Part shown: in pieces, positions 29,510 to 61,636 of the stretch
Layout: each line of letters starts with the position of its first letter
Numbering within the stretch: the first letter of the stretch is position 1
Notes under the pieces: model-generated
Told to the model about the DNA's origin: nothing
What the model saw: the letters and a program-made list of their open reading frames with translations, nothing else
Database searches by the model: none
DNA from: an uncultured Hungatella sp.
GTDB taxonomy: Bacteria > Bacillota > Clostridia > Lachnospirales > Lachnospiraceae
Direction: 5' to 3'
DNA: 64,000 nucleotides
Assembly: GCA_947089145.1 (NCBI GenBank)
Contig: CAMUJH010000020.1
Location: 1-64,000, forward strand
Translations under genes and position numbers: made by a program

Positions 29510-29517
29510 AATCTTAT

Positions 29518-38388: not shown

Positions 38389-38411
38389 TTTTCGTATTCC
38401 CCTTATTACCA

Positions 38412-39608
38412 TTATGCTTCAACTATAAAGTCTATCATTGCTAAAGCCGTCTCTGCCGCTTTTACTGCTGCTTCTGCAGTATCCATTTGAGCAATCACAT
38501 ATCCTAACCTATCGGAACTTTTTCTTAACGGAGTTGCTTCCATGCCTATGCCTTTCAAAATACCAACTTCTTGGATTCCTTCGACTTTTTTCGCACGATC
38601 CAAGCCGATAATATTCTTTATTTTTCCAACTCTTTCTCTCATAAAATATCTTACACAAGATCCCTTATTAAAACTGGGAGTCACGTCAATGGGTTCGCCA
38701 AGAGCAATCTTCACAACATTTCCCGGCATATCAACTCCAGTAGACAGAGGTACCATCCGAGTCGTCATAAAGTCGCCGGCCAGCCTTACTCCAATCTCTA
38801 CTACTTTTGGGCCTTCTGATGTTACAATCATCTCTGTACATGAAGAACCTTGGTAGTTTTCTACAGCCATATTTGCATTAATAGCAATTTTATATATTTC
38901 CTCCTGCATATCCCTATTGAGTATAGATGGCTGGCTATATCCACAATCGGTAAAATACGGAGGTTCCTTGTGCATCTGATCTGTAATTTGAATAGGATGG
39001 CAGATTCCACTAGAGTTCAAAGTTTCGACGCAAATTTCTAATCCCTTCATGCATTCCTCTATGAGTAACTGGCCAGTTCCGGAAAACCCAATGCAGTAAT
39101 CATATGCGAAGTCAATTTCTTCAGCATTTTTCAAATCTTTCAGCATATAAATGCCACGGCTCCCAGAACTATCCGCTGCTTTTACGACACACCTGTTCTC
39201 AAAATTCAACAAAGCTTCCGTATACGCATCCTTTGATTTTACAATATAGAATTCCGGAACCGGTACTCCTCGTTCTTTTAGCCTCAATCTCATTGCCGCC
39301 TTGTTTGTCCCCATAAAGGCCGCCTCTTCACTAATCCCAGGAAGATTCATCTTTGTTGAAACATATGCAGTCGACCGCACCCCGGCGTCAACTGAAGCAA
39401 GAATGCCGTTTATTTGATATTTTTGAGCCAGTTCAAGAATCTTTTCTTTGTCCGCAATGCTGCTATATTCTTTAATTACCCCCCCTATAGTGAATCCTGG
39501 AGAGTGTTTGTCTTGATCAACAACTACTGCCTTATGGCCCATTGCAATAGCACTCTGAATTACTGGAATTTCAGACATGCCTGCGCCAAGGATCATTACT
39601 GATTTCAT
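38412..39608 (-). CDS. ATP-grasp ligase, contains an in-frame G7 tract
   Basis: 398 residues of the ATP-grasp superfamily (biotin-carboxylase / carbamoyl-phosphate-like ligases): N-terminal Rossmann-like region (GAGMSEIPVIQSAIAMGHK), ATP-binding central domain with CVVKAADSSGSRGIY and the metal-binding VVEIGVRLAGDF. It should join a carboxylate to an amine or thiol; substrate unknown. The codons for IGGV near residue 41 contain G7 (39479-39485) followed by TA. In the window the frame is open, but one slipped base would truncate the protein early. Confidence 0.85.
   Translation of the reverse strand: MKSVMILGAGMSEIPVIQSAIAMGHKAVVVDQDKHSPGFTIGGVIKEYSSIADKEKILELAQKYQINGILASVDAGVRSTAYVSTKMNLPGISEEAAFMGTNKAAMRLRLKERGVPVPEFYIVKSKDAYTEALLNFENRCVVKAADSSGSRGIYMLKDLKNAEEIDFAYDYCIGFSGTGQLLIEECMKGLEICVETLNSSGICHPIQITDQMHKEPPYFTDCGYSQPSILNRDMQEEIYKIAINANMAVENYQGSSCTEMIVTSEGPKVVEIGVRLAGDFMTTRMVPLSTGVDMPGNVVKIALGEPIDVTPSFNKGSCVRYFMRERVGKIKNIIGLDRAKKVEGIQEVGILKGIGMEATPLRKSSDRLGYVIAQMDTAEAAVKAAETALAMIDFIVEA
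39479..39485 (-). repeat. Poly-G tract G7 in ATP-grasp gene (frame open)
   Basis: Seven G on the coding strand, read ATA GGG GGG GTA. Early position in the gene means that any +1 or -1 slip removes nearly the whole enzyme. Confidence 0.9.
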
Positions 39609-39649
39609 GCTCTTTTGCTCCTCTCGATTCCATTCTGTTTATACCACAA

Positions 39650-40966
39650 TCACGCCCTTTTTGAAAAGCATTCTTCCATAGCCCTTGTTATACCCTTAGT
39701 AACCTGACGGCTTATGAAAAAGTCAGGCTTTCCGTTCCGTACAGCATTTGCCAGTTCTACAAGTTCATGCCGGATGCCTTCACCTTCCAGCTGGTAAAAA
39801 TATCTTTTATTATCGGCTGGATTTTCATAGCGTATCTCAAAATAATCCGTTTTCCACCATGGCGCAGGGACATAAACATAACCTTTGGTTCCTGATACTA
39901 TCAACTCTCCTTCGGATTTAACTCCTGTACCTGCCTTGATTGTTGCTACTGCTTCCGGATAAGCAAAATCCAGTTTCGTATAAATGTCACTTGACATTTC
40001 CCCTTTCAACCAGAAAACATTCATCCTATCATATTCGGTTCCCAATATCTGGAATACTGGAAGAAGCGCTGTAGGCCCCCATGCCTCCAGCGCTCCCCAC
40101 TTCTTACTGCCGATGACGTTTTCTTCTGAAGTCAGGCTTGTGCAAGTAGCGTCTACAGATACTATCTTTCCAATTTTTCCGCCTTTCAGGAGAAGAAGCA
40201 TTCTGGAAAAAGCCGTTATGTATGCTGTTCTGATTGCCTCCATAAAAATACACTTGTTTTCTTTAGCTGTATAGATTAAATCCTCATATTCAGCTACGGT
40301 CATTGCAACAGGGCTTTCGCACAAAACATGCTTACCTTTCATAAGAGCCTTTTTACATTCTTTGAAGTGGGTGTGAGGATGTGAATGTAAATAGACAGCA
40401 TCCACGCTTTCAAGCAATACATCGTATTCGTCTGTATAGAGTTCTACTTCTTTTCTTAGTCCCACAACAGTTTCTAAAGATGGCGCACACACGCCTACAA
40501 CCCTGACAGTATTTACATATTTTGACTCATGGTAAAATTTCTTTAGGAAAGGCGCATAGCCAACAAGCCCCAGACGTAATGCTGACATTTTACTTCTTAT
40601 TTCTGTACTTGACACTCCTTCAGTCCGAGGAAGATAAACAACCTTACAGTATTCATTGAGATAGTCAAAATATCCAACCCAGTCAGAACCTACCGTAAAG
40701 ATATCAACATCATATCTTTTAATGTCGTCTATTTTCTGCCCTTCATATTCTTCTACGATAATTTTATCGGCCAAGCCAGTTGCCCTGACAGCCGCAATTC
40801 TGTCCTCCAGATGTTGCTGAACATTTATTTTTCCTCGGGTCTTATCAAAGTCTTCAGCCGTTACTCCAACAATAAGATAGTCCCCTAATTTTTTTGCCCT
40901 CTCTAAGAGTTTAATATGGCCATGATGGAACAGATCATACGTTCCATAAGTAATAACCTTTACCAT
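39650..40966 (-). CDS. Cytidylyltransferase fused to Gfo/Idh/MocA-type oxidoreductase
   Basis: 438 residues in two parts. Residues 1-130 are a TagD-like nucleotidyltransferase: GTYDLFHHGHIKLLERA (HxGH motif) and SSTEIRSKM. Residues 132-438 form a Gfo/Idh/MocA oxidoreductase: Rossmann start LRLGLVGYAP, CESPVAMTVAEYEDL (the EKP-like motif is altered) and C-terminal sheet. A CTP-activating and an NAD(P)-dependent step are thus joined, suggesting CDP-activation of a small polyol or amino-alcohol made by the second domain. It is 18 bp from the aminotransferase gene. Confidence 0.88.
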   Translation of the reverse strand: MVKVITYGTYDLFHHGHIKLLERAKKLGDYLIVGVTAEDFDKTRGKINVQQHLEDRIAAVRATGLADKIIVEEYEGQKIDDIKRYDVDIFTVGSDWVGYFDYLNEYCKVVYLPRTEGVSSTEIRSKMSALRLGLVGYAPFLKKFYHESKYVNTVRVVGVCAPSLETVVGLRKEVELYTDEYDVLLESVDAVYLHSHPHTHFKECKKALMKGKHVLCESPVAMTVAEYEDLIYTAKENKCIFMEAIRTAYITAFSRMLLLLKGGKIGKIVSVDATCTSLTSEENVIGSKKWGALEAWGPTALLPVFQILGTEYDRMNVFWLKGEMSSDIYTKLDFAYPEAVATIKAGTGVKSEGELIVSGTKGYVYVPAPWWKTDYFEIRYENPADNKRYFYQLEGEGIRHELVELANAVRNGKPDFFISRQVTKGITRAMEECFSKRA

Positions 40967-40984
40967 GATAATTTCCCCATTTAT

Positions 40985-42067
40985 TTAGAGTAGTCCCCGG
41001 CTTCGCATATCCCTCATAGCTTTAATTAATATATCGAAATCACTCTCGGCAAGAGCACCAATATGCCCTACCCTGAAAACGTTTTCTTTAAGCTCTCCGC
41101 CGTTTGGACAGATCCAAATTCCATATTCATTCTTCAATATTGTAAAAATATCATAAGCCGATCTTCCGTTTACAGGTCTAAGAGGAGTTATAGCATTGGA
41201 AAGGGAATCCGATATGATTTCAAAAGGAAATTTTTCCTCTTTAATCCGTTTTCTAAAATACTCAGCCAATCTGCCAATCCGATTAATTTCAGATTGTACG
41301 CCGCCAGCCAAGTCAATTTCTTTTAGCCTTGCATTAATCTGGCGCAATATCCCAACTGCGCAAGTAAACGGTGTTTGGCCACGCTCTCCGTTCTTTAATG
41401 CCAGCTTTAAGTCTAAATACAGTGCCTTTGGCTTATTGGAATACACCCGTTCAACTGCTGCGGAGGACATTGCAATCACTGAAATTCCCGGAGGACAGGC
41501 AAGCGCCTTCTGGGAACCAGTTATCATTGCCTGTACATTCAATTCTTCCATATTAAAAGGATCACAAAGAAAGGAACTAATAGAGTCTACAACCAGGAAG
41601 ATATCATTCCGTCTGCAAAAATCACTAATAAGATTAATATCATAGAGAACTCCTACACTGGTTTCATTCAAATTTACAAGGAACCCAGTAAAGCCTTGGC
41701 CATCGAATTCCGCAAGCTGTTCCGCTGTTATATTATGACCGAATTCCGGCTTAATTACCGCATGCGGGACTTCGTGAATCTCTAGTATCTCTACAAAACG
41801 ATGTCCAAAGCTTCCGCCGTCTATAACGAGCACTTTGTCTTTCGCTGTAAAAAAATTAATCACGGCAGCTTCCATAGATGCCGTGCCAGATCCAGTCATA
41901 AAGACCACTCTTCCATCATTACCCGCTTTTGCAAATTTTTTAATGAGATACTCATTTTCAATCATTACTTCTGAAAACTCAGGAGTTCTGAAATATGGTA
42001 CCTGCTCTGCTCCAACTGCACAAACAGTTTCACTGGACATAACCGGTCCAACTGTAAAATTAAGCAT
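40985..42067 (-). CDS. Class V aminotransferase, PhnW-like
   Basis: 360 residues, PLP-dependent fold type I of the serine-glyoxylate / 2-aminoethylphosphonate-pyruvate aminotransferase group. Features: N-terminal LNFTVGPVMSSE, FMTGSGTASMEAAV, and the PLP lysine in GSQKALACPPG with the preceding VDSISSF aspartate. PEP mutase and phosphonopyruvate decarboxylase are not in the window, so aminoethylphosphonate cannot be asserted. In this locus it may add the amino group of the headgroup transferred by LicD. Confidence 0.85.
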   Translation of the reverse strand: MLNFTVGPVMSSETVCAVGAEQVPYFRTPEFSEVMIENEYLIKKFAKAGNDGRVVFMTGSGTASMEAAVINFFTAKDKVLVIDGGSFGHRFVEILEIHEVPHAVIKPEFGHNITAEQLAEFDGQGFTGFLVNLNETSVGVLYDINLISDFCRRNDIFLVVDSISSFLCDPFNMEELNVQAMITGSQKALACPPGISVIAMSSAAVERVYSNKPKALYLDLKLALKNGERGQTPFTCAVGILRQINARLKEIDLAGGVQSEINRIGRLAEYFRKRIKEEKFPFEIISDSLSNAITPLRPVNGRSAYDIFTILKNEYGIWICPNGGELKENVFRVGHIGALAESDFDILIKAMRDMRSRGLL

Positions 42068-42139
42068 AATAAACCCTCTTTCGTTTGTCTATAACGATTT
42101 CTATGCAAATCCCAGAATGCATTCCGGTTTGATATCTGG

Positions 42140-42955
42140 TCATGCATCTTTATAATAAGCCTTTATGCTATGCCGAATCTGCTTTTCCTTGGGAGGAATT
42201 TGCATATAATCGCCATAATTTAACCTGAGCCATTCGTCATATCTGGAAGGTGCAGGATACTCACCGTCTTCGAATTTAATATTAATCAAGTCATCAAAAA
42301 AATCAGCGTCCAAGAAAAAATCATTCCCACCATATGGATAAAGAAAATCTCCGATTTTTCCTGTATTCACATTTTTATATCTTTTTGCATTGCTTAAAAT
42401 TTTCATCGTAATTGCCTTTACCGAAACAGGTAACAATAGAACTTTAATCCCCAATACTCTAAGCCTTTTTAAAGAGATCCTTCCCTTTCCCATCATCTTT
42501 ACCCTTCGCAGCTTACCTAAAAAATCTCGATAGTGAAGCATTTTGTAATACTTGCTCTTATCCGATGGCGCATTATCATATGCAAACACATCAATATATA
42601 CACCAATCTCGATCTGCTTCCCCGCCTGTTCATACAATACTGTTTTTGTATCTATAATCTTTCCGAAGGGATAATAATAATTATTTCCTATTTCTGGCGC
42701 AATCATTTGAAATCGGCCCATTTTGTTTTTTTCAGACCAATCATTAAACTTTTCTATTGCCTTTTCGTAGTCCTGCCTAAGCATTGACACATCAATATCA
42801 TCATCCCAAGGAATATACCCACCATGCCTTACGGCTCCCAGCAAAGTTCCTGAATCAATCCACCATTTCAGTTTGTTTGTCAGGCAGAATTCCTGAAATG
42901 TATTAAGAATTTTAATTTGGGTTGCCCGTAAATCCTCTGTCTTTATTTCTCTCAT
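42140..42955 (-). CDS. LicD family phosphotransferase (copy 1)
   Basis: 271 residues. LicD enzymes transfer phosphocholine or another phospho-headgroup from a CDP carrier to a glycan. The core motif WIDSGTLLGAVRHGG followed by IPWDDDIDV is intact (about residues 32-57). The C-terminus LRLNYGDYMQIPP is also typical. A second LicD lies at 55787-56692, so two positions of the glycan, or two headgroups, may be decorated. A 15-bp palindrome lies in the leader upstream. Confidence 0.93.
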   Translation of the reverse strand: MREIKTEDLRATQIKILNTFQEFCLTNKLKWWIDSGTLLGAVRHGGYIPWDDDIDVSMLRQDYEKAIEKFNDWSEKNKMGRFQMIAPEIGNNYYYPFGKIIDTKTVLYEQAGKQIEIGVYIDVFAYDNAPSDKSKYYKMLHYRDFLGKLRRVKMMGKGRISLKRLRVLGIKVLLLPVSVKAITMKILSNAKRYKNVNTGKIGDFLYPYGGNDFFLDADFFDDLINIKFEDGEYPAPSRYDEWLRLNYGDYMQIPPKEKQIRHSIKAYYKDA

Positions 42956-42997
42956 CGTTTTATTTCCTTATGTCATTATGTCGTTGATTTATTAACA

Positions 42998-43012
42998 GTA
43001 TAAACTTTATAC
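42998..43012. promoter_or_regulatory. Palindrome GTATAAACTTTATAC upstream of licD copy 1
   Basis: Perfect 7-bp half-sites around one central base, about 45 bp upstream of the LicD start in the longest intergenic gap (189 bp) of the operon. Possible operator or internal promoter region; TATAAT is also present nearby (minus strand), but no good -35 was found. Confidence 0.35.
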
Positions 43013-43107
43013 GTATGGATTAAATTATACTCATCCTTTCTGTCAATTATTTCATCCACAGAACTTATTTAGGGATAGATACTATCTGCCGTCCCTCTAC
43101 TCAAAAT

Positions 43108-43137
43108 CCTCCTGTCAATGCCGCCATGTCAAGGAGG
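43108..43137 (-). terminator. Weak hairpin, possible partial terminator
   Basis: CCTCCT (43108-43113) and AGGAGG (43132-43137) can form a short stem 8 bp downstream of the glycosyltransferase stop, followed on the minus strand by ATTTTG. Too weak for a firm terminator call. Confidence 0.3.
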
Positions 43138-43144
43138 GTTCTTG

Positions 43145-44014
43145 TCATATGCGAAAGAAATCCCTGTTATTGGCGAAAGTCTCATTATTGAACAATTTAT
43201 GTTGTTTCTTTTTGAAATATCTTGATTTGCACACTCTGTTCTCAAGAATTTTCATTCCTTCCTCTTTAGATGCACCCACATCAATTGAAAATATTTTATC
43301 CGCTATATTCAGACAGCCGATTTCTTCATTGTTGTAAACGCTTTCGAGAATAGGATAATGAATCTTTCCTGATTCCCAATAATTTATCCAGCTATAAATC
43401 GGATTCGAGATAAAATTGCCAAAATGCACAAACCAGCAGCCTTCGACATAAAACGAGCCGACATTAATCTCCTTTTTGTCTCTTAAATAAGTAAAAAACC
43501 AATCCAGGTTAAAAATCTCCTCTATATCATTATAGGAACCCATCCAAGCCCGGGAACCAATATTATCAAATATCTCCGTATAGTCCACCCTGCCAGCATC
43601 CACATAAGTTACTCCAAACGACCAATGCCGGCCACATGTGCGGCTCAGCCACATATCAAGAGATATAATGTCCATGCGGCTGTCAAGCGCATAATTTTGT
43701 GCATATTTCAAAGCCAAGGCCGTCCGATCAGCATTCATCAAAAAGAACGTATCATCCGCATCTATGCTCCAGAAGTTCTCATACCCATTCTGTTTTGCAT
43801 GATAGAAAGGCGTCAAATGCGCATATGTAGCATTTTTCCAATTTCCGGTATAGAGATTTTCAGCATTATGGATTCTATTCTTTCCAAATGAAGAAATAAA
43901 CTTAATATCACGGTTTGGAAAAAAACAAGACTTTAGAACCTTGTGCTCCAGCCATTTATTATCACATACAAAATAATAATCAGCGCCAATGGCTTTAATT
44001 ACGTCAAGCCACAT
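43145..44014 (-). CDS. GT-A-like glycosyltransferase, 3' part separated by G8 frameshift
   Basis: 289 codons from an internal ATG. It contains an NFWSIDADDTFF segment whose DADD is a plausible GT-A metal-binding motif, and a tail rich in aromatic and Asn residues. The real start of the gene is the fragment at 44043-44252: with seven instead of eight G at 44082-44089 the two parts read as one 368-residue protein from 44252 to 43145. In the window the intact enzyme would not be made. Family assignment is moderate. Confidence 0.75.
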   Translation of the reverse strand: MWLDVIKAIGADYYFVCDNKWLEHKVLKSCFFPNRDIKFISSFGKNRIHNAENLYTGNWKNATYAHLTPFYHAKQNGYENFWSIDADDTFFLMNADRTALALKYAQNYALDSRMDIISLDMWLSRTCGRHWSFGVTYVDAGRVDYTEIFDNIGSRAWMGSYNDIEEIFNLDWFFTYLRDKKEINVGSFYVEGCWFVHFGNFISNPIYSWINYWESGKIHYPILESVYNNEEIGCLNIADKIFSIDVGASKEEGMKILENRVCKSRYFKKKQHKLFNNETFANNRDFFRI

Positions 44015-44042
44015 CTGGATACATTCAATAGTATATGGGGCA

Positions 44043-44252
44043 TCACGGTTTATCTTTAAATAGAATACGGGCTGCTTTATACCCCCCCCGATTTACATAG
44101 GCCATCTGTTTCCAATAGCCAATGCCAAGAAAACGAGTTTGATTGAAGCTGCCATTTTCAGTTTTAATCACTATCTTCCCTGTATCCATGATTCTCCATA
44201 TTAGTTTCCTAATTAGAGAAGCTAAATTTTTTATAAAAGACTTCACTTCCAT
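44043..44252 (-). CDS. GT-A-like glycosyltransferase, 5' fragment ending at the G8 frameshift
   Basis: 69 codons beginning one base after the flippase stop, ending in a stop 30 bp past the poly-G tract. The in-frame continuation with one G fewer reads GGIKQPVFYLKINRDAP and joins the downstream fragment without a stop. The position, immediately behind the flippase gene, shows that this is the true gene start. Confidence 0.8.
   Translation of the reverse strand: MEVKSFIKNLASLIRKLIWRIMDTGKIVIKTENGSFNQTRFLGIGYWKQMAYVNRGGYKAARILFKDKP
44082..44089 (-). repeat. Poly-G tract G8 (frame closed) in glycosyltransferase gene
   Basis: Eight G on the coding strand followed by TA. G8 gives a 69-residue stub; G7 gives 368 residues. 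1107 coding bases after removal of one G is divisible by three. Confidence 0.92.
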
Positions 44253-44253
44253 A

Positions 44254-45720
44254 CTATCTCTTCCTTCTTAATTTCCCTTTAAAAACCATTATAGCTTTTA
44301 ATGCAGTTCCCTTCACAAACTGATTCCCTATAAGGTATTCAATGCAGAAATAACCTGCCCCAGCCAAAAACATGCTGGAAAACAAAGCTATCAGCCCTTC
44401 ATGAACCCATTGCTTAAATGCAAATGAAACTGCAGCGACAAATATTCCTCCTATAAATGACTGGGCAATAACTTTGATTCCAGAATCTATTTTCACTAAC
44501 TTTCTTCCCACGCTCCAAGCCAGCAGTGCGGTAACCGCTTCACTCAGCAAAGTTGTAAAAGCTGCAGCATCCTGCTTAAAATTAGGGATTAAAATAAAAT
44601 TTCCAATCAGATTAATAACGGCACTTGCCGCGGTAATATAAAGCAGTGTTTTTTCCCGCCCTGACGCAACAAGAACACATTGCCCCCAGAATACAGCCAT
44701 GACATAGCCGAACAAGCCAAGAATGAGAATAATTAAGGAATGGACAGCTTCTACGTACTCGACTCCGCCAAACAGCAAGATAATCTCATGGGCAAAGATT
44801 GCACCGCCTGCAACAAAAGGAAAAGCCAGTGTAACAATTATTGAAAAAATGTGGGAGGCCGATCGGTTATAGGACTCCATTTCGTTGTTTCCTATAAAGT
44901 TGGTCAGTGTTGTCACACCTACAATTGATGCAGATGTCAAAATGGAGCAAAGAACATGATAGACTTTTACTGCTGTTCCATACAAACCAACGTTATAGTC
45001 TCCACACATGAATCCCAGCATCGTTTGATCCGTGTTTGCGTAGATTGTTATCATCATGGCATTTGCAAAAAACACTAAAGCCTTGGGCAAATGCTTCTTA
45101 AAATTGCATTTAAATGTAAAGGCGATATTACAGTACTTTCTTGAATGTACAAAGTTAAATATATTTCCTCCGGCTGATGCAATAATTGAAATAATAGAAT
45201 ACATTATCAAATCATCTGAATCATGTACCAGTAAAAACAGCAATGCCATTGAGATAATTTGCATCGCAATTTGCCTGGCAGTGATATATATATAATCTTC
45301 ATAGATGTTATATATCCACTCCACTCCAAAAACCGTCAGGAACATTGACAGCGATAATACTAATGCGAGAATATACTCGTTTTGTAGTTTCCTAATTAAA
45401 AAAATGCAGCTGACAAGAATGATATACGATATGACAGTAAGTATTATGTTACACGAGAATACCTCAGAGGCAAATCGAGACAGTTTTTTCCTGTCATTTC
45501 TTATAATTGCGCCGTCACGTCTGGCATAACTAGCTATCCCCAAAGAGCCAAGGAGCAGAAAATATCCAATAATTGAATTAATAAAATTGTACCTCCCCAT
45601 GTTCTCCACACCCAGAATGCGCAGGGCATATGGGTACGTAATCAATGGGAATAGCACTGTTAATATGCTTTTTACTGAAAAAATAAAGCTGTTAAGTGAA
45701 ATGCTTTTCCGTTTCATCAC
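44254..45720 (-). CDS. Oligosaccharide flippase (Wzx / MATE-like)
   Basis: 488 residues with about 14 hydrophobic helices, N-terminus SLNSFIFSVKSILTVLFPLI, PYALRILGVENMGRYNF and NFIGNNEMESYNRSASH motifs of Wzx/RfbX proteins. It flips undecaprenyl-linked repeat units to the outer face for polymerisation by the Wzy-like protein (49223-50467). It overlaps the HAD gene upstream by 4 bp. Confidence 0.93.
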   Translation of the reverse strand: MMKRKSISLNSFIFSVKSILTVLFPLITYPYALRILGVENMGRYNFINSIIGYFLLLGSLGIASYARRDGAIIRNDRKKLSRFASEVFSCNIILTVISYIILVSCIFLIRKLQNEYILALVLSLSMFLTVFGVEWIYNIYEDYIYITARQIAMQIISMALLFLLVHDSDDLIMYSIISIIASAGGNIFNFVHSRKYCNIAFTFKCNFKKHLPKALVFFANAMMITIYANTDQTMLGFMCGDYNVGLYGTAVKVYHVLCSILTSASIVGVTTLTNFIGNNEMESYNRSASHIFSIIVTLAFPFVAGGAIFAHEIILLFGGVEYVEAVHSLIILILGLFGYVMAVFWGQCVLVASGREKTLLYITAASAVINLIGNFILIPNFKQDAAAFTTLLSEAVTALLAWSVGRKLVKIDSGIKVIAQSFIGGIFVAAVSFAFKQWVHEGLIALFSSMFLAGAGYFCIEYLIGNQFVKGTALKAIMVFKGKLRRKR

Positions 45721-46091
45721 AGATTTCCATCAATCCTTATATCTATTTTGATTGGTTCATCACGCCCTACTGAAAGAGCATTAGCCATTGCCAGTCCGCT
45801 GGGCTTATTGTCATTAACCAGGATGCGTTCGCCATACGGGGCATTATAGATAATATAATTATATCTAACACCATGATTCCTAAGAAACAGTTCAGTCATC
45901 TCCTGGTATTCATCCGTCCTGGACGTAATGAGCACAATCATGTCAGTTTGAGGAATATTCTCCAGGAAAGCCCTGGCACCAGGCAGAAATGAGTCATATC
46001 CATCCAGCTTATAACCATTGTGTTTAACAATCGTCCCGTCAAGATCCAAAATCCATGTATGGCCAAGGTTTGATAATACTAATTCACTCAT
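45717..46091 (-). CDS. Small HAD-family phosphatase
   Basis: 124 residues of the haloacid dehalogenase superfamily: motif I WILDLDGTIVKHNG, motif II VLITSRTDEY, and VNDNKPSG as motif III/IV. No cap domain, as in KdsC/GmhB-type sugar phosphatases. It overlaps the nucleotidyltransferase-kinase-SIS gene by 8 bp. An isomerase, kinase, nucleotidyltransferase and HAD phosphatase together resemble heptose or Kdo activation sets, though the substrate here is unknown. Confidence 0.85.
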   Translation of the reverse strand: MSELVLSNLGHTWILDLDGTIVKHNGYKLDGYDSFLPGARAFLENIPQTDMIVLITSRTDEYQEMTELFLRNHGVRYNYIIYNAPYGERILVNDNKPSGLAMANALSVGRDEPIKIDIRIDGNL

Positions 46092-48186: not shown

Positions 48187-48266
48187 AATTGTCCTCCTGA
48201 TTTCAATAAATTTTCTGTATTTATCAGTATAAAAAGAATTAAACTTTTCCATAACTGACACAGCAT

Positions 48267-49202: not shown

Positions 49203-49222
49203 ACCCTGCCCTCCAAACCGAA

Positions 49223-50467: not shown

Positions 50468-50498
50468 AATCAGTATTTCCTATCTAATAAAAATAATC

Positions 50499-51566: not shown

Positions 51567-51737
51567 ATAAAGCACCCTCATATAGCGAACTTAATCCGGA
51601 TGTCTTTGTGATATTGGGAACAACCGTTCTACAAAAGCATTTTATATAAGCTATATATTTCTTTCATTTGCCTTTGGACAGAAAAATGTCCCATAGCATA
51701 TTCACGGGCATTTGATGATAGTTCGCTAATCACTTGA

Positions 51738-52775: not shown

Positions 52776-52778
52776 TCT

Positions 52779-53936
52779 TCATATCCTCCCTGACAGGTAG
52801 GCATCTAATGCTTCCTTCACAGCTTCTAAATATCCGTATCCATTCTTTGTATCCGGTTCCAAATAAGTACCCTCGCTCCACTCATTCCACGCATTAATGA
52901 ACACCATGTCATAATTGCTTTCCTGTTCCGCTTTTCTGAATAATTGAATCATATATTTTTTAAATTTCTGCGGAGTAGCTCCGCTAAAAATTCTAGCCCC
53001 TCTATTTCTTCTCCTAGGGGAATTATCCCAATCACAAAATGCACCTAGAATAAGGTTGTCGGAATCAAGTTTCCTGTCCAATATATGTTTCCAAAAAACA
53101 TCGTAATCAAAAAATGTTGTTCTGATCTTGGGATTCTCTGACTTTATTAAAGAACCAACCGCAGACTTTAGTTTCTGACCCTCCACATTACAAAACAGCT
53201 TAGAATTCATAATAAAATCTTTGAAAAGATTAGTTCTGAACACACTAAACTCAGCTTGTGTATGTCCGGGTTCATATAAAATGTAAGCATCCACTTTGTT
53301 ACTCGTATTTTTAGTTGTACCATAGGTTGAGCCTTGCGACACAATATATATTCCTTCTAAGCATTCTTTCTTTGCAAGCTTGTTCCAACAGTCGATCATT
53401 GCATCAAGTTCTTTAATTAATTCGGGACGGTATATTATAAGCATAGGTTTATTGTCATGATAAATATATCTATTATCCTGAAAAAAGGGCAATAAATAGT
53501 AAAAGTGTTTTTCCCACTCTTCTTTATCTCCATATTCTTGAGGCATTATGATTTCTTTAGCTTTGCCGCTCCATGTCCGCGTCCAAGGCTCATTGGCCCA
53601 GCAGATACAGAAATTAATGTTTTTTGTTTTATCAGCTAAAAATTTTTCTACAGGCCTTTCAAGGATTTTCTTTCCATTTTTAAACCAGTAATGATAAAAG
53701 CAGAATCCATGCACTCCATATTTATGTGCTAAAGATATCTGCCAATCAACCGTCCTGTCAAAATCCAGGTCTAAGTCATAGTAGTTATCATCTAACGGCA
53801 TTCTTGGTTGATTATGACCTTTAAATAACGGTTTAGAGCTTTTAACATTTGTCCATTCAGTAAATCCTTCTCCCCACCACCTATCATTTTCCTTTGTCCT
53901 ATGAAACTGTGGAAGATAAAATGCTATGACTTTCAT
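52779..53936 (-). CDS. WbsX-like (GH99-like domain) polysaccharide protein
   Basis: 385 residues. The start KVIAFYLPQFHRTKENDRWWG and GFTEWTNVKSSKPLF, then GFCFYHYWFKNGKKIL and NEPWTRTWSG, are diagnostic of WbsX proteins of O-antigen and capsule loci. They have a GH99-like fold and are often annotated as glycosyltransferase, but activity is not well established. It ends 3 bp before the GT4 gene. Confidence 0.9.
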   Translation of the reverse strand: MKVIAFYLPQFHRTKENDRWWGEGFTEWTNVKSSKPLFKGHNQPRMPLDDNYYDLDLDFDRTVDWQISLAHKYGVHGFCFYHYWFKNGKKILERPVEKFLADKTKNINFCICWANEPWTRTWSGKAKEIIMPQEYGDKEEWEKHFYYLLPFFQDNRYIYHDNKPMLIIYRPELIKELDAMIDCWNKLAKKECLEGIYIVSQGSTYGTTKNTSNKVDAYILYEPGHTQAEFSVFRTNLFKDFIMNSKLFCNVEGQKLKSAVGSLIKSENPKIRTTFFDYDVFWKHILDRKLDSDNLILGAFCDWDNSPRRRNRGARIFSGATPQKFKKYMIQLFRKAEQESNYDMVFINAWNEWSEGTYLEPDTKNGYGYLEAVKEALDAYLSGRI

Positions 53937-53962
53937 TAACTTAGACTCCTCAAATAATTAAT

Positions 53963-55036
53963 TTATGATACAGTCCCGTCTATCATCCTTTGATACATTT
54001 CACTTATGGAATACCCCCCCTGAGGCTCCCAACCAAGCTGCTTCAACGCGTTTGTATCAAGATTCATATACAACGTCTGCGGGAATCCGTTAACCGCCTC
54101 ATTTTGGATGTCATATTCAACTTGAATCCCCCCATCAGCAGCTATTCTTTCTGCCATTTCAGCAATAGAACAGTATGTATTCTCATCCGCTGCATTATAC
54201 GCATTGCCCGAAATTCCCTTCAGCAAAATCATCAGTATCGCCGTCACCGCATCTGTAGTATACAGATAGCACCTTTCCGTCTCTCCTTTTGTCTTCAGAA
54301 CAATGTTCTTCTTCTCATTGATACAACGCCCAAAATAGGCAAAGATACGTGCATCATTACAGTTGACTCCCGGACCGAATGTCTGTGTTAATCTGCAGAT
54401 CGTAGCTGGAACTCCATATTCCTTGGCAAAAGCACAGCACATAGATTCACATATTATCTTACTAATTGGATAACTATTGCGGAGATCCAATGGAGTCATG
54501 GAGCCGATTTCATCCTCGGTTACCTTATGGCCACGTTCTGGATATCCATATACTTCCATACTGGACAAGTATACGAATCCCTTTACCGATTTCTCCTTTG
54601 CCAGTTTAAGAAGATTGAATGTTCCAAACACAGATGTCTCTATTGTTTCAACTGCATGCCGGATAAATTCCTTACTCGCCGTTTGGCTCGCTCCATGGAT
54701 GATAAAATCAATGGGTCCATCCACTTCCGGCAGTTTCTCCACCGTCCCTTCAGTTAATCTAAGCATCCCGTCATCAAGAATATCTTTAAAATGCTTTTTC
54801 GCCTTCTTCTCATCCCTTACCAATGCAATTATTTTTAGGTTTAGAGTCTTAGTTTTATTGGCATGGTTCAGCGAATGAATCATTGTTGTTCCAATCAGCC
54901 CTGTTGCACCAGTAATCAAAATCGCAGCGCCTTTCATCTTATCCCACGGAATGAATTCCGCATTTGATACACATTCAATGTCTTCCCTTATAATATTCCT
55001 ATTTACAGCCACTATGCTTCTCCGTTTCCGATACAT
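53963..55036 (-). CDS. NAD-dependent epimerase/dehydratase (extended SDR), contains an in-frame G7 tract
   Basis: 357 residues: Rossmann motif GATGLIGTTMIHSL, SSMEVYG and the catalytic YPISK. It probably modifies a nucleotide sugar, or reduces the precursor of the polyol activated by the TarI-like enzyme encoded just upstream (24 bp). Two G-runs occur: G6 (54128-54133, DGGI) and G7 (54014-54020, PQGGY). The G7 run is followed by TA and is in frame; slippage would replace the last 18 residues. Confidence 0.88.
   Translation of the reverse strand: MYRKRRSIVAVNRNIIREDIECVSNAEFIPWDKMKGAAILITGATGLIGTTMIHSLNHANKTKTLNLKIIALVRDEKKAKKHFKDILDDGMLRLTEGTVEKLPEVDGPIDFIIHGASQTASKEFIRHAVETIETSVFGTFNLLKLAKEKSVKGFVYLSSMEVYGYPERGHKVTEDEIGSMTPLDLRNSYPISKIICESMCCAFAKEYGVPATICRLTQTFGPGVNCNDARIFAYFGRCINEKKNIVLKTKGETERCYLYTTDAVTAILMILLKGISGNAYNAADENTYCSIAEMAERIAADGGIQVEYDIQNEAVNGFPQTLYMNLDTNALKQLGWEPQGGYSISEMYQRMIDGTVS
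54014..54020 (-). repeat. Poly-G tract G7 (frame open) in SDR gene
   Basis: Read CAG GGG GGG TAT on the coding strand; the C-terminal SISEMYQRMIDG is family-like, so G7 is the functional state. Confidence 0.88.
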
Positions 55037-55060
55037 TCCGTCAGTTCACTTTCCCGGACT

Positions 55061-55780
55061 CTATAAACCAAATATCTGCGAATTCTCCCTGGCATCAACA
55101 ATAGCTCTGAAAATATAAAAATCTCCTGGTGTGGTTATTTTTATATTTTCCGCTGGTCCCTGAACTGTGTACAGCTTATGACCATAAAACTGCATTAGTG
55201 ATGCGGAGTCTATGAAATCACAGTATCCGACACTCCTTGCTTTCAGATGCATCTCATAAAATTCTCCTAAATTAAAGCATTGCGGTGCCTTTGCAAGCTG
55301 ACATTCACTACGCGGCAAGATCTCTCCCACGCTCTCCTGTTCGCCCATCAAAGCGATAGTTTCTGTTGCTGGCGACACTGTAATCGCATTACCGTATTTC
55401 TTAACGCAATTAATGCAATTTTCAATAGTATTAACATCTACCAATGGTCTTACACCATCATGGACGAGCACTACGCTATCATCCGGATACAGTTCATGAG
55501 CCTTTTCTACTCCTTTAAATATAGATTCCTGCCCTGTCTCTCCACCAGGAATAACAGACTTTACTTTTGTAATTCGATATTCTTCAATCAAATCAAGGCT
55601 ATAGGAAATCCAGCCTTCAAGCATTGCAACCACAATGCCGTCTATGGACGGCGCCTGCTGAAACAGCTCTAGTGTATAGATTAATATTGGTTTGCCGTGC
55701 AATTTCAAAAACTGCTTCGGTTTTGATTTTGTATTCATTCTTTTACCGGCACCGCCGGCAAATATAACTGCCACATTCAT
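55061..55780 (-). CDS. TarI/IspD-like cytidylyltransferase
   Basis: 239 residues, IspD/TarI fold: FAGGAGKRMNTKSKPKQFL, then VLVHDGVRPLVD and the C-terminal ITTPGDFYI. Because the MEP-pathway genes lie elsewhere and this gene is inside the polysaccharide operon next to an SDR, ribitol-5-phosphate (or a related polyol phosphate) activation as in TarI/TarJ is more likely than IspD activity. The pair would supply CDP-ribitol-like donor. Confidence 0.87.
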   Translation of the reverse strand: MNVAVIFAGGAGKRMNTKSKPKQFLKLHGKPILIYTLELFQQAPSIDGIVVAMLEGWISYSLDLIEEYRITKVKSVIPGGETGQESIFKGVEKAHELYPDDSVVLVHDGVRPLVDVNTIENCINCVKKYGNAITVSPATETIALMGEQESVGEILPRSECQLAKAPQCFNLGEFYEMHLKARSVGYCDFIDSASLMQFYGHKLYTVQGPAENIKITTPGDFYIFRAIVDARENSQIFGL

Positions 55781-55786
55781 TAATTC

Positions 55787-56692
55787 TCACTTTCTTGCCC
55801 TGTTAAAATCAAGCTGAAGGCATAGATGTTTTTCTCTGTCCTTTATATCGGGAATCTTCATATAATCACCATATAAGCCCTTTAGATATGTATTTTCATC
55901 ATTATAAATATATATTTGCCTGTCCTCAAAAGGTACTTTTTTCAGAGGAAAAAATGTGGTGTATTCATAAATCTCCCCGCAGTATTTCTTTCTTCCCGCT
56001 GCAACAGTCACATAGCTGCTCTTCTTACCTCTAATAAATCTATCAAATGTAGCGAACCACTTCTCCGCTGTTCTAAACGAAAGCACTGTCCCAATTGCAA
56101 TTCTGAGTTTATAATAGCTTTTTCCTTCCGAGTGAATCATGAAATCTTTCAGGCTCTTGCTCCTGTACTGCTTCCAGTAAACGCTATACGAACCAAACCG
56201 AAGGACATCTGCGATCTTCCCTTTGAAGTTTTGTGCCATCTTTGACTTCGGCGCAAAATCAATGGGGGTGATATCTATATATATTCCGGTCGGGTATGGC
56301 GATGCTTCATCAATCATATTTAAAAATGTGGTGTTTTTCTTTAAAACACGCATCAGAAAGCAAGCTGCTCCCTTATCATATCCGGGAGCAAGCAGATCAT
56401 ACTTATCTCCAAGATCTCTATTGAAGAATTCAATGAACTTTTGATAATCAGTTCTGGTAAGATTTAAATCCATATCATCATCCCAAGGGATAAAGCCCTT
56501 ATGCCGAATTGCGCCAAGTGCTGTTCCGCCGCCAGCTATCAGCTTTAAACTGTGTTTTTCGCAATATGCCCACAGATCATCATAAATCTCCAGAAGGATC
56601 TTATGCATTTTCTTAATATCATCTTCTGTCAGTTCATATAGATTGCTGGCACCGCTTTTAAGTGATGCATAATTTTTCTTTAGCATAATCAC
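55787..56692 (-). CDS. LicD family phosphotransferase (copy 2)
   Basis: 301 residues with LIAGGGTALGAIRHKG followed by IPWDDDMDLN, the LicD core, and LKGLYGDYMKIP near the C-terminus. It probably transfers a phosphate-linked substituent from a CDP donor to a sugar; the adjacent TarI-like gene (6 bp) suggests a polyol phosphate rather than choline for this copy. That is inference. Confidence 0.92.
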   Translation of the reverse strand: MIMLKKNYASLKSGASNLYELTEDDIKKMHKILLEIYDDLWAYCEKHSLKLIAGGGTALGAIRHKGFIPWDDDMDLNLTRTDYQKFIEFFNRDLGDKYDLLAPGYDKGAACFLMRVLKKNTTFLNMIDEASPYPTGIYIDITPIDFAPKSKMAQNFKGKIADVLRFGSYSVYWKQYRSKSLKDFMIHSEGKSYYKLRIAIGTVLSFRTAEKWFATFDRFIRGKKSSYVTVAAGRKKYCGEIYEYTTFFPLKKVPFEDRQIYIYNDENTYLKGLYGDYMKIPDIKDREKHLCLQLDFNRARK

Positions 56693-56718
56693 TGCCGTAT
56701 TTCCATCCTTTTAAGATA

Positions 56719-57111
56719 TTATCCTTCCACAATCTCCATCAATCCAAAGCCAAGACTCATCAGAAAAATTACTCGCTTACCACCAAATGCAACTGCCTCC
56801 CGTGGTCCAATAATCACCTTAAAGCCACTTATCTTCAGATGTTCAATATCTTTATCAAAATCTAAGCTTTTATAGCAAATGTGATAAGGTGTCGGGCCTA
56901 CTGAACTTAAATATTGGTCAACTGGAGACTTCAAGTTCCTTTCTAACGGACATACAAGTTCGATCCGGCATCCATCCATCTCGCCAAAGACAACCCTGAT
57001 GTTCCTGTCTTTATCGTCAATTTGAGGTTCAAAGACATAACCAAGACTGTGGAAAGCATCTATTGCCTTATCTATTTTTTTTACCGCATATCCAATGTGA
57101 TCGATCTCCAT
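56719..57111 (-). CDS. VOC-superfamily protein (glyoxalase/epimerase-like)
   Basis: 130 residues with two beta-alpha-beta-beta-beta units. Metal-ligand candidates are His5 (DHIGYAV), Glu51-type CRIELVCP, His (TPYHICYK) and the final LMEIVEG glutamate, as in methylmalonyl-CoA epimerase. Coupled to the FkbH gene (5-bp gap), so it may act on an acyl-ACP or acyl-CoA. Confidence 0.82.
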   Translation of the reverse strand: MEIDHIGYAVKKIDKAIDAFHSLGYVFEPQIDDKDRNIRVVFGEMDGCRIELVCPLERNLKSPVDQYLSSVGPTPYHICYKSLDFDKDIEHLKISGFKVIIGPREAVAFGGKRVIFLMSLGFGLMEIVEG

Positions 57112-57116
57112 CTGTT

Positions 57117-58769
57117 TTATCCCTCAGTCTTGATTTCTTTATAATAAGCGAACAATTGCTTCTGATAGTTTCCTGCATCCATCTCATATATCTTATGGCC
57201 GTTAATATCAGAAACTATATGAAATCCTAATCTATCATACAAATCTTTTACTGGTATATTCTTCGCAGTGGGAATGAACTCAGCTATTATCTTTCCATCA
57301 AATTTCGAAGCCAGCTCATTGATAATCACATTTTCCAGCTTCCGTCCCATTACCCGGCAGGACATTAGGAAACTGTCTATTTTCATATCCGTATCAGAAT
57401 TTTTAAGGATAATCACACTAATCAGGCCGCTATCTCCATACTTATCAGAACTGTAGGCCACATAGACCGCATTCCTAAAATCCGCAGCAATCTTTTCAAT
57501 TTCGTCTTGTGTATATCTTTTAGTAGTTACATTGAACTGATTCGTCTTATTGATCAGTTGAGTAACGCGCCCTATCTCTTCCGGACGCATCCTGTGAATA
57601 TCAACCATAATCTCAAGTTTCTTTATGTAATCATCCAGATTGATGCTTTCACTCATTTCTTGACTGCGTTTTGCCTCGTTCTGGTACATCTGAGTCTTAT
57701 TCAGATCATGGCCAAGAACTCGTAATGGCATGCAATAGTCAAACCAGATATCTTCAGCAAAACCTAGCAGTTCTGTCGTATCGGCCGGAAAGTCAGGAAC
57801 AAGTATTTCCAGGCATTCAGCTTTTACCGTCTCCCGTTCAATCGGGTTATCATCAATAAAGATGAAGCTGCCTTCTGTAAGATTCAGTTCACTCTCCATT
57901 TCTTTGAGATTGGCTACCTTACTCTTCCAGTTGATCTTCCTGCTTACAAAATCATCATTTTTTAAAAGCATTGCCGGATGAAACCTAATCGCCTTATCTG
58001 CATCCTGTTCATTATTTTTACTATTTATCGCCAGAATAATGCCTCTGTTCTTCATCTCCAGAAGCTGCCGCTGGAAATCGTAATAACGCTGCCCCTCTTT
58101 GTGATCAGATATCTCAATGCCTTCAATGCCATCTTCACTGATAACTCCGCCCCAAAGAGTATTATCAAGATCTACTGCTATGATTTTCTTGCGGAGGCTG
58201 AATGCAGCACTGAGCGCTCTGTCAAGCTCCATGCATACAGCATCAAGGCCATCTTTGGAATATGGCATACTGCTCAGATACCACATCTTGTTCGAATAGA
58301 ATTGTTTTCGCCCTATTTCAGCAATGGTATCCGCAAGATCTAACGTGTATACCTTGCTCTTGCTCTCTGCAAGGCTCTGTATATGCTGATACCAGTCATT
58401 CTCCATCTCATATCTGGCTTTCCGCTCTGAAGGAGATTTGATTCTGTTTTCACGGATATCAATAGTTGAAATAAAGATGGGGATTGTTATGGTATAGTTT
58501 GTTAGCGCTGTTATGGCCTGCTTCCAGAGCGTTATCCTTTCCTTTCCCTCTTCATCGCTTTTCCAAGAACGAGCTTCTGTACCATCCAGCAAAACAAATA
58601 CAGCATCTACATTCCTGTTATAAAGTCCTGATGCGGGATTTATCGCTTCCTGCACCCAGGTATCAAATCCTTCAGGTGTATAAAAATCATACTTGTGTCT
58701 CAGCTTGCTCACGATCAGATCTACAGTAATATTTGAAAGCAGTGCTATTATTTTCTTCGACTCGGCCAT
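57117..58769 (-). CDS. FkbH-like HAD-IIIC acyl-loading enzyme
   Basis: 550 residues: N-terminal SGNH-like part (to about 185), HAD domain with IIAVDLDNTLWGGVI (DxDxT nucleophile) and FIDDNPIERE, and a C-terminal GNAT-like part (from about 390). FkbH proteins load a glyceryl group from 1,3-bisphosphoglycerate onto an ACP. The ACP gene lies 54 bp upstream, so a glycerate-derived unit may be attached to the polysaccharide. Confidence 0.9.
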   Translation of the reverse strand: MAESKKIIALLSNITVDLIVSKLRHKYDFYTPEGFDTWVQEAINPASGLYNRNVDAVFVLLDGTEARSWKSDEEGKERITLWKQAITALTNYTITIPIFISTIDIRENRIKSPSERKARYEMENDWYQHIQSLAESKSKVYTLDLADTIAEIGRKQFYSNKMWYLSSMPYSKDGLDAVCMELDRALSAAFSLRKKIIAVDLDNTLWGGVISEDGIEGIEISDHKEGQRYYDFQRQLLEMKNRGIILAINSKNNEQDADKAIRFHPAMLLKNDDFVSRKINWKSKVANLKEMESELNLTEGSFIFIDDNPIERETVKAECLEILVPDFPADTTELLGFAEDIWFDYCMPLRVLGHDLNKTQMYQNEAKRSQEMSESINLDDYIKKLEIMVDIHRMRPEEIGRVTQLINKTNQFNVTTKRYTQDEIEKIAADFRNAVYVAYSSDKYGDSGLISVIILKNSDTDMKIDSFLMSCRVMGRKLENVIINELASKFDGKIIAEFIPTAKNIPVKDLYDRLGFHIVSDINGHKIYEMDAGNYQKQLFAYYKEIKTEG

Positions 58770-58823
58770 TATCAGTAAAGCTCCCTTTTTGAATATAATC
58801 CTCTTTATTTACTGAAGGATAGT

Positions 58824-59027
58824 CTATTTTATAATCTCATACAAATCTTCTAATGTCTTCACATTATCAAGGCTCTCCATTGGGATAGTTTTTCCGTATT
58901 CCGCTTCCAATTCCATAACAAGCTTGAGCATCATCAGGGAATCCCATTTCCCTTCTTTGTAAGTCATATCCATAGTAACCTTGTCTTTTTCCATTATTTC
59001 AGCAACAAACTCTAAGAACTTTTCCAT
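58824..59027 (-). CDS. Acyl carrier protein
   Basis: 67 residues. KWDSLMMLKLVMELE holds the phosphopantetheine serine in a D-S-L motif, and the helical pattern is that of a stand-alone ACP. It differs from fatty-acid ACPs and is dedicated to this locus, being placed between FkbH and acyltransferase genes. Confidence 0.92.
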   Translation of the reverse strand: MEKFLEFVAEIMEKDKVTMDMTYKEGKWDSLMMLKLVMELEAEYGKTIPMESLDNVKTLEDLYEIIK

Positions 59028-59078
59028 TTCACCTATCTCCTTGATTTCTTATTGCTTTGCTCTAAAACAGAAAGAAAT

Positions 59079-59714
59079 TTAAAATTTCACATTCTTTGCC
59101 GGATTTCCGAACATTTTCATATTGTCTTTTACCCTGGTCATAACTGTACTTCCAGCACAAAGGTAAGCATCATCTCCAATCTTTGTTGCAGGAACCATAT
59201 TTGATGTTGTTCCCATGAACACCCGATTACCAAGCTTGCACATGCCTGTTACATCACAATGTGCGCTAATCGTGCAATACTCTCCCAAAACCGAATCATG
59301 GGCTATGGATGAGTACATATTGATGATGCATCCATCACCTATTACTGCGTTATCTGAAATCAGTGCATATGGATAGATGATAACGCCCTCACCAACCGTA
59401 CAGCTATCCGCAATTACAGCGGACGGATGGATGATCGTAATAAACACTGCTCCTTTAGCCTTCAGTTTCTCTACGACCATGCTGCGGATTTTTCCATTTC
59501 CGATGCAGCAGGTGAATTCATCTTCAGGTTCTATGGCATATTCATCAATCTTAGACAGAACCGTTGCACTGCACTTTTTTCCTTCTAATGCATTCAAGTC
59601 ATCATCTAAAAAACCTTTAATATTCCATCTGTTTTCAGCTTCATTAATATCCTTAGCCCACTGCAGGACTTCACGTCCGCATCCGCCAGCTCCGATAATA
59701 AGCAGGTTTTTCAT
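59079..59714 (-). CDS. NeuD/PglD-like sugar O-acyltransferase
   Basis: 211 residues: N-terminal Rossmann-like GAGGCGREVLQWAKD and a left-handed beta helix of hexapeptide repeats (about 95-205, for example VIIYPYALISDNAVIGDG). It probably transfers an acetyl or other acyl group to a sugar amine or hydroxyl. Its ATG overlaps the stop of the preceding acyltransferase (ATGA) only when that gene's G-tract is G7, which argues that G7 is the native frame. Confidence 0.9.
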   Translation of the reverse strand: MKNLLIIGAGGCGREVLQWAKDINEAENRWNIKGFLDDDLNALEGKKCSATVLSKIDEYAIEPEDEFTCCIGNGKIRSMVVEKLKAKGAVFITIIHPSAVIADSCTVGEGVIIYPYALISDNAVIGDGCIINMYSSIAHDSVLGEYCTISAHCDVTGMCKLGNRVFMGTTSNMVPATKIGDDAYLCAGSTVMTRVKDNMKMFGNPAKNVKF

Positions 59715-59852
59715 TGGCTCTTCTCCATTTCCTTAAACCGTTTCCAACATGCTGCTACTGTCTCTTCTGACAGGCCGCATTTGCCATAAGTAATTTTTAT
59801 ATGAGGCATATTCTTTCGTTTTTCTATGAAATCATCAAACGAACCTATATAC

Positions 59853-59858
59853 TTTACT
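59853..59858 (-). repeat. Poly-G tract G6 (frame closed) in acyltransferase gene
   Basis: Six G between TAT and TA on the coding strand. G6 meets a stop two codons later; G7 opens 46 further codons to 59711. Confidence 0.9.
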
Positions 59859-60270
59859 GGTACCCCCCATAAACTCCATTACCAGGTATGCTTTTATTTA
59901 CCAATGTCCCGGCTGCTATAACAGTATTCGATCCAATCATAACATTCGGTAATATGGTGGAATTGGAGCCTATAAATACATTGTCCTTTATATGAATGCA
60001 GCCAAGATTTTCCTGGAAATCACTTTCTTCAAATTTGTTGTTCAGCATTCTATGGATGACATCATGGGGAATGAAACTAACCTGAGAGGCAATCCAAACG
60101 TTATCCCCTATTGAAATTAATTTAGGATACAAAGGTATCTTCCGGAACATCGTCATGCAGTTATCTCCAATATAATAAAGAATGTCATTTTTTTTCAGAT
60201 ATTCTGCTCTCTTAATTGCAGTTGGGCATAAATACATGCCTATCGTATGTTTTATCCTATACCAATCCAT
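59854..60270 (-). CDS. Hexapeptide-repeat acyltransferase, truncated at G6 tract
   Basis: 138 residues as encoded, ending GVYGGYQ. Left-handed beta-helix repeats (IGDNVWIASQVSFIP, VFIGSNSTILPNVMIGS) mark a CapG/WcaF-type O-acetyltransferase. With one more G at 59853-59858 the reading continues GGVPVKYIGSFDDFIEKR, the usual GxPAK-like end of these enzymes, for 186 residues in all, ending at 59711 in an overlap with the next gene. GGAGG precedes the ATG. The present form loses the C-terminal segment and is likely impaired. Confidence 0.9.
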   Translation of the reverse strand: MDWYRIKHTIGMYLCPTAIKRAEYLKKNDILYYIGDNCMTMFRKIPLYPKLISIGDNVWIASQVSFIPHDVIHRMLNNKFEESDFQENLGCIHIKDNVFIGSNSTILPNVMIGSNTVIAAGTLVNKSIPGNGVYGGYQ

Positions 60271-60290
60271 TTATCCTCCATGACGTCACC

Positions 60291-61624: not shown

Positions 61625-61636
61625 ATCCGCCTCACA

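Follow-up and report, generated by a model that had tools for sequence, protein, structure and literature searches.

Results

Five poly-G tracts in a polysaccharide gene cluster

The window analyzed here comprises 64,000 nucleotides (64 kb) of contig CAMUJH010000020.1 from an uncultured Hungatella sp. of the family Lachnospiraceae. It carries a run of same-strand genes that we read as a surface-polysaccharide operon, and five genes of this cluster contain poly-G tracts that are candidate contingency loci, i.e., sites at which slipped-strand phase variation may switch surface genes (Table 1). All five tracts have G on the coding strand with TA directly behind (a run of seven G followed by TA is written G7TA below); in order of coordinate, they appear on the plus strand as C7, C8, C8, C7 and C6.

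An earlier note on this DNA had placed four of the tracts exactly; the fifth lies at 59863-59868 and not at 59853-59858, i.e., 10 bases away. It also held that all G/C runs of at least seven fall inside the locus, which we confirmed: the window has four such runs, every one within the polysaccharide cluster. The frame states that it had assigned were likewise borne out, tracts 1 and 4 lying within one open frame and tracts 2, 3 and 5 separating upstream and downstream gene parts that are in different frames. The further claim that seven G at each site gives a full-length, family-like protein stood in part. The frames, read by hand, are consistent with it, but "family-like" is not supported for tract 2, the downstream part of which has no Pfam match.

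For the tract-3 gene, the Pfam Glycos_transf_1 profile was covered from position 12 to 141 of 172, and the match to PDB 4xso ends at residue 334 of 345, at the tract. In the case of tract 5, two paralogues from the same genome, L017 (193 aa) and L043 (208 aa), match both gene parts, with the frame change at the tract. Our working cut-off of seven G/C inside a reading frame is reached by four of the five tracts; tract 5, with six G, is below it and is the weakest of the five.

Table 1. Positions of the polysaccharide gene run, its poly-G tracts and the tract-bearing genes (window coordinates)
Feature	Coordinates	Strand	Basis
Same-strand gene run, read as a surface-polysaccharide operon	36889..63783	-	Open reading frames and Pfam
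Tract 1, G7 + TA, within one open frame	39479..39485	-	L024, 408-codon open frame
ATP-grasp / L-amino-acid-ligase-like gene, tract 1 near its start	38412..39608	-	Pfam LAL_C2, ATP-grasp
Tract 2, G8 + TA, frame change	44082..44089	-	Run and frame reading
Tract-2 gene, upstream part, 69 codons then TGA	44043..44252	-	Read by hand
Tract-2 gene, downstream part, 289 aa, putative sugar-transfer role	43145..44014	-	Open reading frame; role from context
Tract 3, G8 + TA, frame change	51778..51785	-	Run and frame reading
GT4 glycosyltransferase up to early stop just past tract 3	51738..52775	-	Pfam Glycos_transf_1, PDB 4xso
Tract-3 gene, downstream part, other frame, too short for a homology match	51629..51777	-	Read by hand
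Tract 4, G7 + TA, within one open frame	54014..54020	-	Relatives have G7-G10 at the same place
NAD-dependent epimerase/dehydratase, tract 4 near its end	53963..55036	-	Pfam Epimerase
Tract 5, G6 + TA, frame change	59863..59868	-	Run, frames and paralogue alignment
Hexapeptide acetyltransferase up to early stop at tract 5	59854..60270	-	Pfam Hexapep; PDB acetyltransferases
Tract-5 gene, downstream part, other frame	59711..59862	-	Aligned to L017 and L043 proteins

Poly-G runs elsewhere in the same genome

The genome from which the window comes has 43 distinct runs of at least seven G (G7+), one of which is a contig-end run of 17. Four G7+ runs were seen in 21.9 kb against approximately 0.19 expected (Poisson 4e-5, post hoc). 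Shuffling of synonymous codons, which is a weaker chance test, gave a mean of 0.58 runs in the listed open reading frames (ORFs) against the three present, a number reached in 40 of 2000 shuffles. TA stands behind 11 of the 42 other G7+ runs (binomial 5e-5, with the 6.4% at which TA follows G4 in family loci as reference), and the cluster holds four of these 11, including both G8TA runs of the genome.

The seven G7TA genes outside the cluster encode an Acyl_transf_3 protein, four Hexapep proteins, a methyltransferase and a fragment of 82 residues that matched no family. As a control, the 31 non-TA G7+ runs of the same genome led to 27 ORFs of at least 100 codons. Among the matches listed for these (25 of 53 families), most are housekeeping proteins to judge from their names, e.g., solute-binding proteins, Rho, an ATP-synthase type and aldehyde dehydrogenase; the surface-type families are LicD, WcbI and Glyphos_transf. 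Surface genes made up 7/11 of the TA genes and 3/27 of the controls (Fisher 0.002) among the matches listed, a comparison that depends on sorting by family name and includes the window's own four tracts.

The epimerase tract in relatives

A search of genome contigs with the tract-4 epimerase yielded 11 loci in 10 genomes, L063 and L064 belonging to one genome. Eight genomes encode epimerases that are 59-66% identical to that of the window, and six of these have G7-G10 followed by TA at the same place, with lengths of G10 (L059), G9 (L060 and L061) and G7 (L062, L063 and L065). The frames of L060 and L061 are open at G9, so that the earlier note's rule that G7 is the functional length is not supported. 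No G run was found at the site in the remaining two members of this group, L066 and L067, nor a G7 run in two more distant loci (43% and 25%). L059 and L060 each carry three tracts. The IspD-epimerase pair is common to the loci, and their remaining genes correspond in part to those of the window.

Of the six tract-bearing genomes, three bear the label Lachnospiraceae and one each that of Eisenbergiella, Gastranaerophilales and Oscillospiraceae. The contigs labelled Gastranaerophilales (L059), Oscillospiraceae (L061) and Akkermansia (L066) share the IspD-epimerase pair with Lachnospiraceae contigs, and may be misbinned or horizontally transferred.

A further 17 epimerase homologues share 41-53% identity; two belong to the window's genome and 15 to other genomes of the family. 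Their loci are without a run of seven, and the protein therefore does not require the run. The site residues were read in 11 of them, and none has Gly-Gly there; the other six were judged from the absent G7 run. The earlier note had held that relatives with non-repetitive codons in place of the tracts would refute a switch. Such codons do occur in these distant homologues, but we take them to mean that the protein can do without the tract and not as evidence that there is no switch.

Reading frames and gene content at tracts of relatives

At a threshold of 30 codons, the frame changes at 23 of 48 decidable TA tracts in the fetched loci, compared with 33 of 330 G5-G6 runs and 839 of 4608 random points (Fisher 2e-9). 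The frame was undecidable at 21 of 69 TA tracts and 10 of 23 other tracts. Raising the threshold to 40 and 60 codons gave frame changes at 15/34 and 15/29 TA tracts.

Among the matches listed for the 54 TA-tract ORFs of at least 100 codons (25 of 59 families), Acyl_transf_3 leads with 10, followed by Epimerase (4), Hexapep (4) and Glycos_transf_1 (3), with LRR_5, SLH, Big_2, YfhO, GtrII and MBOAT present in ones or twos. Loci L137, L140 and L141 of genome G173 have tracts of the form ATACA-G9/G10-TA in long ORFs, mostly near the ORF start. When scanned singly, the first ORF of L137 and L140 showed SLH, Big_2, GLUG or repeat domains, and the ORFs of these three loci look like phase-variable surface proteins. 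In five other loci (L123, L132, L136, L142 and L153), G9-G10 runs lie outside ORFs of 100 codons, and these are possibly promoter-spacing switches.

TA behind long runs across the family

To survey the family, we counted G8TA, i.e., GGGGGGGGTA, against its reversed control ATGGGGGGGG. The former outnumbered the latter 681 to 178 in 396 family genomes, being more frequent in 176 genomes and less frequent in 35. Genome G170 was left out of this total as an outlier; with it, the counts are 796 to 222. Outside the family, in 295 genomes of the phylum, the counts were 436 to 350.

After runs of one to six G in family loci, TA occurs at rates of 8.2, 7.4, 6.7, 6.4, 4.5 and 2.1%. Behind G9+ runs, it was found at 10/19 in G297, 8/13 in G173 and 10/16 in G391, and behind G8+ runs at 16/44 in the single-contig genome G405. 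The pooled figure for these four genomes is 44/92, from counts that are complete per genome, but the genomes were chosen for many G8TA hits. Because TA follows G1-G6 runs at 2-8%, long runs appear to form a class of their own and not the tail of short ones. Two further genomes had TA fractions of 3/4 (G343) and 1/5 (G256), and the G8+ figures of 19/21 and 73/94 in family loci come partly from loci chosen for TA. A conserved flank besides TA was sought in 116 tracts, 92 of them with TA, and yielded weak preferences alone.

The G8+ runs of G405 form four clusters of four to six runs each; one stretch of 12 kb has six, two of them with TA. They are mostly on the plus strand up to about 1.6 Mb and mostly on the minus strand beyond 1.87 Mb, a pattern suggestive of co-orientation with replication.

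Two contigs of one assembly

The loci L063 and L064 are two contigs of G716, a genome from the roe-deer gut. One of them, C33 (83,015 bases), is contained in the other, C50, over its full length, and the two differ at two poly-G tracts alone, with lengths of G9/G7 (TG behind) and G8/G9 (TA behind); a third G7+ tract, in the epimerase gene, is of equal length. None of the 30 A/T runs of at least seven, six of which are of at least eight, differs between the contigs (Fisher 0.006, post hoc). This is the pattern expected of a phase-variable population.

Other features of the window

The Pfam scan covered the cluster genes up to 60971. It identified PIG-L deacetylase, hexapeptide acetyltransferase, PglD-like, LicD, IspD, epimerase, WbsX and two GT4 proteins, as well as a flippase, a fused nucleotidyltransferase-kinase-SIS protein, a second LicD, a class-V aminotransferase, an ATP-grasp ligase and a BCCT transporter. 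Three genes at 60968-63783 were named from sequence as a putative thiolase, hexapeptide transferase and sugar transferase, and an FkbH-like protein and a polymerase were likewise assigned provisionally from sequence or context. The cluster is probably transcribed as a single unit. The protein encoded at 46084-48270 combines nucleotidyltransferase, kinase-like (APH) and SIS domains and has the two LicD genes and the BCCT transporter beside it, perhaps pointing to phosphocholine or a similar glycan decoration. Elsewhere in the window, there is a glycine riboswitch at 29515-29606 (Rfam RF00504, 61.4 bits). A tRNA scan gave no match.

Discussion

We consider the tracts to be contingency loci, i.e., sites of slipped-strand phase variation of surface genes that would be widespread in this Lachnospiraceae-like family and show a preference for TA, and we put the probability of this reading at approximately 0.84. 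During replication, a coding-strand poly-G run would gain or lose one G by slipped-strand mispairing, which the accessible parts of three reports treat as an established mechanism at such tracts (PMC9187656, PMC6321876, PMC6437147). The downstream part of the gene would thereby enter or leave the reading frame, so that lineages of cells would come to differ in the sugars, acetyl groups or other groups that decorate their surface polysaccharide. Tracts of this kind (G7 to G12, with TA strongly preferred) are present in surface-glycan and surface-protein genes in many members of the family, which is taken as Lachnospiraceae-like from its named relatives. The earlier note had proposed a coordinated set. 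We found no link among the five tracts, and our default assumption is that each slips, and would switch, independently of the others, in which case up to 32 combinations could arise from the five.

Several of the features by which contingency loci are recognized are present here. Run length sets the frame at tracts 2, 3 and 5 and at the frame-changed TA tracts of relatives, and length is polymorphic at a fixed site, both between the genomes that share the epimerase tract and between the G716 contigs. As judged by Pfam against the own-genome control, the genes concerned make or decorate the surface, with G170 as the exception. The proposal of multi-gene poly-G phase variation is thus well supported through the relatives, with their conserved tract position, varying lengths, frame changes, surface genes and differing G716 contigs. 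The tracts do not fit the hypermutable class that is deficient in mismatch repair: MutS1 and MutL were above the family cut-off in 30/30 genomes, i.e., 15 bearing tracts and 15 without G8TA, and loss of mismatch repair was rejected as a cause.

Among the alternatives, the one that survives best, although we regard it as unlikely, is that the runs are assembly or sequencing errors, a consensus artefact of a draft genome. The source is indeed a draft (4.46 Mb in 127 contigs, 87% complete), and G170 has odd runs in housekeeping-like genes. In addition, contig-end runs of 17 and 23 G (L053 and L159) resemble poly-G artefacts, although these may equally be assembly breaks at long tracts. Errors are, however, not expected to favor surface-glycan genes, or to recur at the same place in homologues of six genomes. 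Moreover, tracts are also borne by assemblies with megabase contigs (G405, a single contig, and G173, with a contig of 3.5 Mb), and over the 83 kb shared by the G716 contigs it is the G tracts that differ, with no A/T run and no other base doing so.

Slightly less probable is the explanation that the runs merely encode Gly-Gly motifs under a codon or mutation bias. Every run does encode Gly-Gly, and genome G170, a 1.6 Mb draft from the family, offers a case in point. Its G8TA count is 115 against 44 for the control, and over 53 kb (loci L188-L191) G8-G9 runs lie in-frame at Gly-Gly motifs of housekeeping-like genes, named by eye, with TA behind 10 of 17 G7+ runs; in these stretches GGGGGG encodes 17 of 106 Gly-Gly pairs against 3.5 expected. 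Phase variation does not account for in-frame runs in such genes, and codon bias, an artefact or another cause may underlie them. For the tracts at issue, the 17 distant epimerases count against the explanation, as they lack the G7 run and, in the 11 with the site read, lack Gly-Gly itself. Furthermore, the window's genome has three paralogous acetyltransferases whose tracts sit at two different places, and TA is found in all three codon phases.

The frame data also bear on pseudogene decay, in which the runs would be mutational hot spots at which three cluster genes have been lost. Although three of the five tract genes are currently frame-broken, the tract-5 gene retains an open and homologous frame past the break, and relatives have preserved the epimerase tract at its site although its length varies. 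Finally, the frame is continuous across 25 of the 48 decidable TA tracts, as switching rather than one-way loss predicts, and we consider decay improbable. Least probable of all is programmed transcriptional or ribosomal slippage, by which a single DNA sequence would give two products: a frame change at a repetitive run would look alike in a single genome, but the DNA lengths themselves vary between contigs of one assembly and between relatives, and the 116 tracts have no strongly conserved flank past TA.

Several findings nevertheless weigh against phase variation at contingency loci as set out above, or limit it. Besides the draft status of the source and the G170 runs, the runs of the window are short (G6-G8), and G6 is under the cut-off of seven used for Campylobacter. 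No tract-bearing homologues were found in the searches made for the genes of tracts 1-3. For tract 1, three homologues of 34-38% identity (200 genomes, E up to 1e-60) lacked a G7 run; the downstream part of the tract-2 gene had no homologue in a search of genome contigs; and in a DNA search of 26 genomes of the genus with the tract-3 gene, the window itself was the sole match. Genomes with one or more G8TA occur as often outside the family (175/295) as inside (206/397). The signal therefore lies in the surplus over the control, which is concentrated in some genomes. TA is a preference and not a law, as G405 and G256 illustrate, and the four genomes pooled for it were a selected set. Frames also change at 10 of 13 decidable non-TA tracts, and switching is therefore not bound to TA. 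ABC_tran (2) is among the families listed for TA-tract ORFs, and an assembly error at G runs is a possible source of the difference between C33 and C50.

With regard to TA itself, we tentatively raise a bolder reading, which we think somewhat more likely to be wrong than right: G7-G12 followed by TA may be a dedicated DNA-level switch module, with TA either a requirement or a remnant of the process by which tracts become or stay slippery. This would amount to family-wide, sequence-tuned phase variation of surface glycans and adhesins despite intact mismatch-repair genes. Our guess is that weak stacking of the TA step where the run ends may ease slippage. Two other candidates were rejected: TA as the seed of stop codons, since TA is followed by T or C in 73% of 92 tracts and by G in 8%, and TA as a codon effect, given its occurrence in every codon phase.

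Gut bacteria are reportedly also made heterogeneous in their surface genes by inverton promoters, which resemble the present tracts in that outcome and differ in acting through DNA inversion and not through tract length (PMC11892184). Closer parallels come from poly-G systems, described here from the accessible parts of the reports. The Campylobacter phasome, as defined with PhasomeIt, consists of intragenic poly-G/C runs of at least seven, with a peak at 9-10 (PMC6321876). It shares with the tracts studied here the intragenic runs, the switching of frames that we propose and the large number per genome, whereas it belongs to another phylum, that part of the report mentions no TA preference, and MutS1 and MutL are present in all of the genomes examined here. 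In Campylobacter cgtB, the resemblance is that a glycosyltransferase is truncated through a change in poly-G length, although this is a lipooligosaccharide gene of an unrelated bacterium (PMC6437147). The sortase-pilus switch of Bifidobacterium breve likewise involves a gut commensal and an intragenic G tract, of G10-G11, with a measured mixture of lengths in the population; it concerns one or two pilus clusters per genome, in contrast to the multi-tract polysaccharide clusters described here (PMC9187656). We found no description of poly-G phase variation in Lachnospiraceae in the open-access full-text literature, outside which most subscription papers lie, and we claim no priority.

Lachnospiraceae are abundant gut bacteria. 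If the tracts do switch as proposed, a single strain would be a mixture of surface types. This would matter for immune recognition and phage resistance, as well as for strain tracking and live-bacterial products; some surface genes that are switched off would, moreover, appear as broken in consensus genomes. The preference for TA would, in addition, offer a testable clue to how slippage is tuned.

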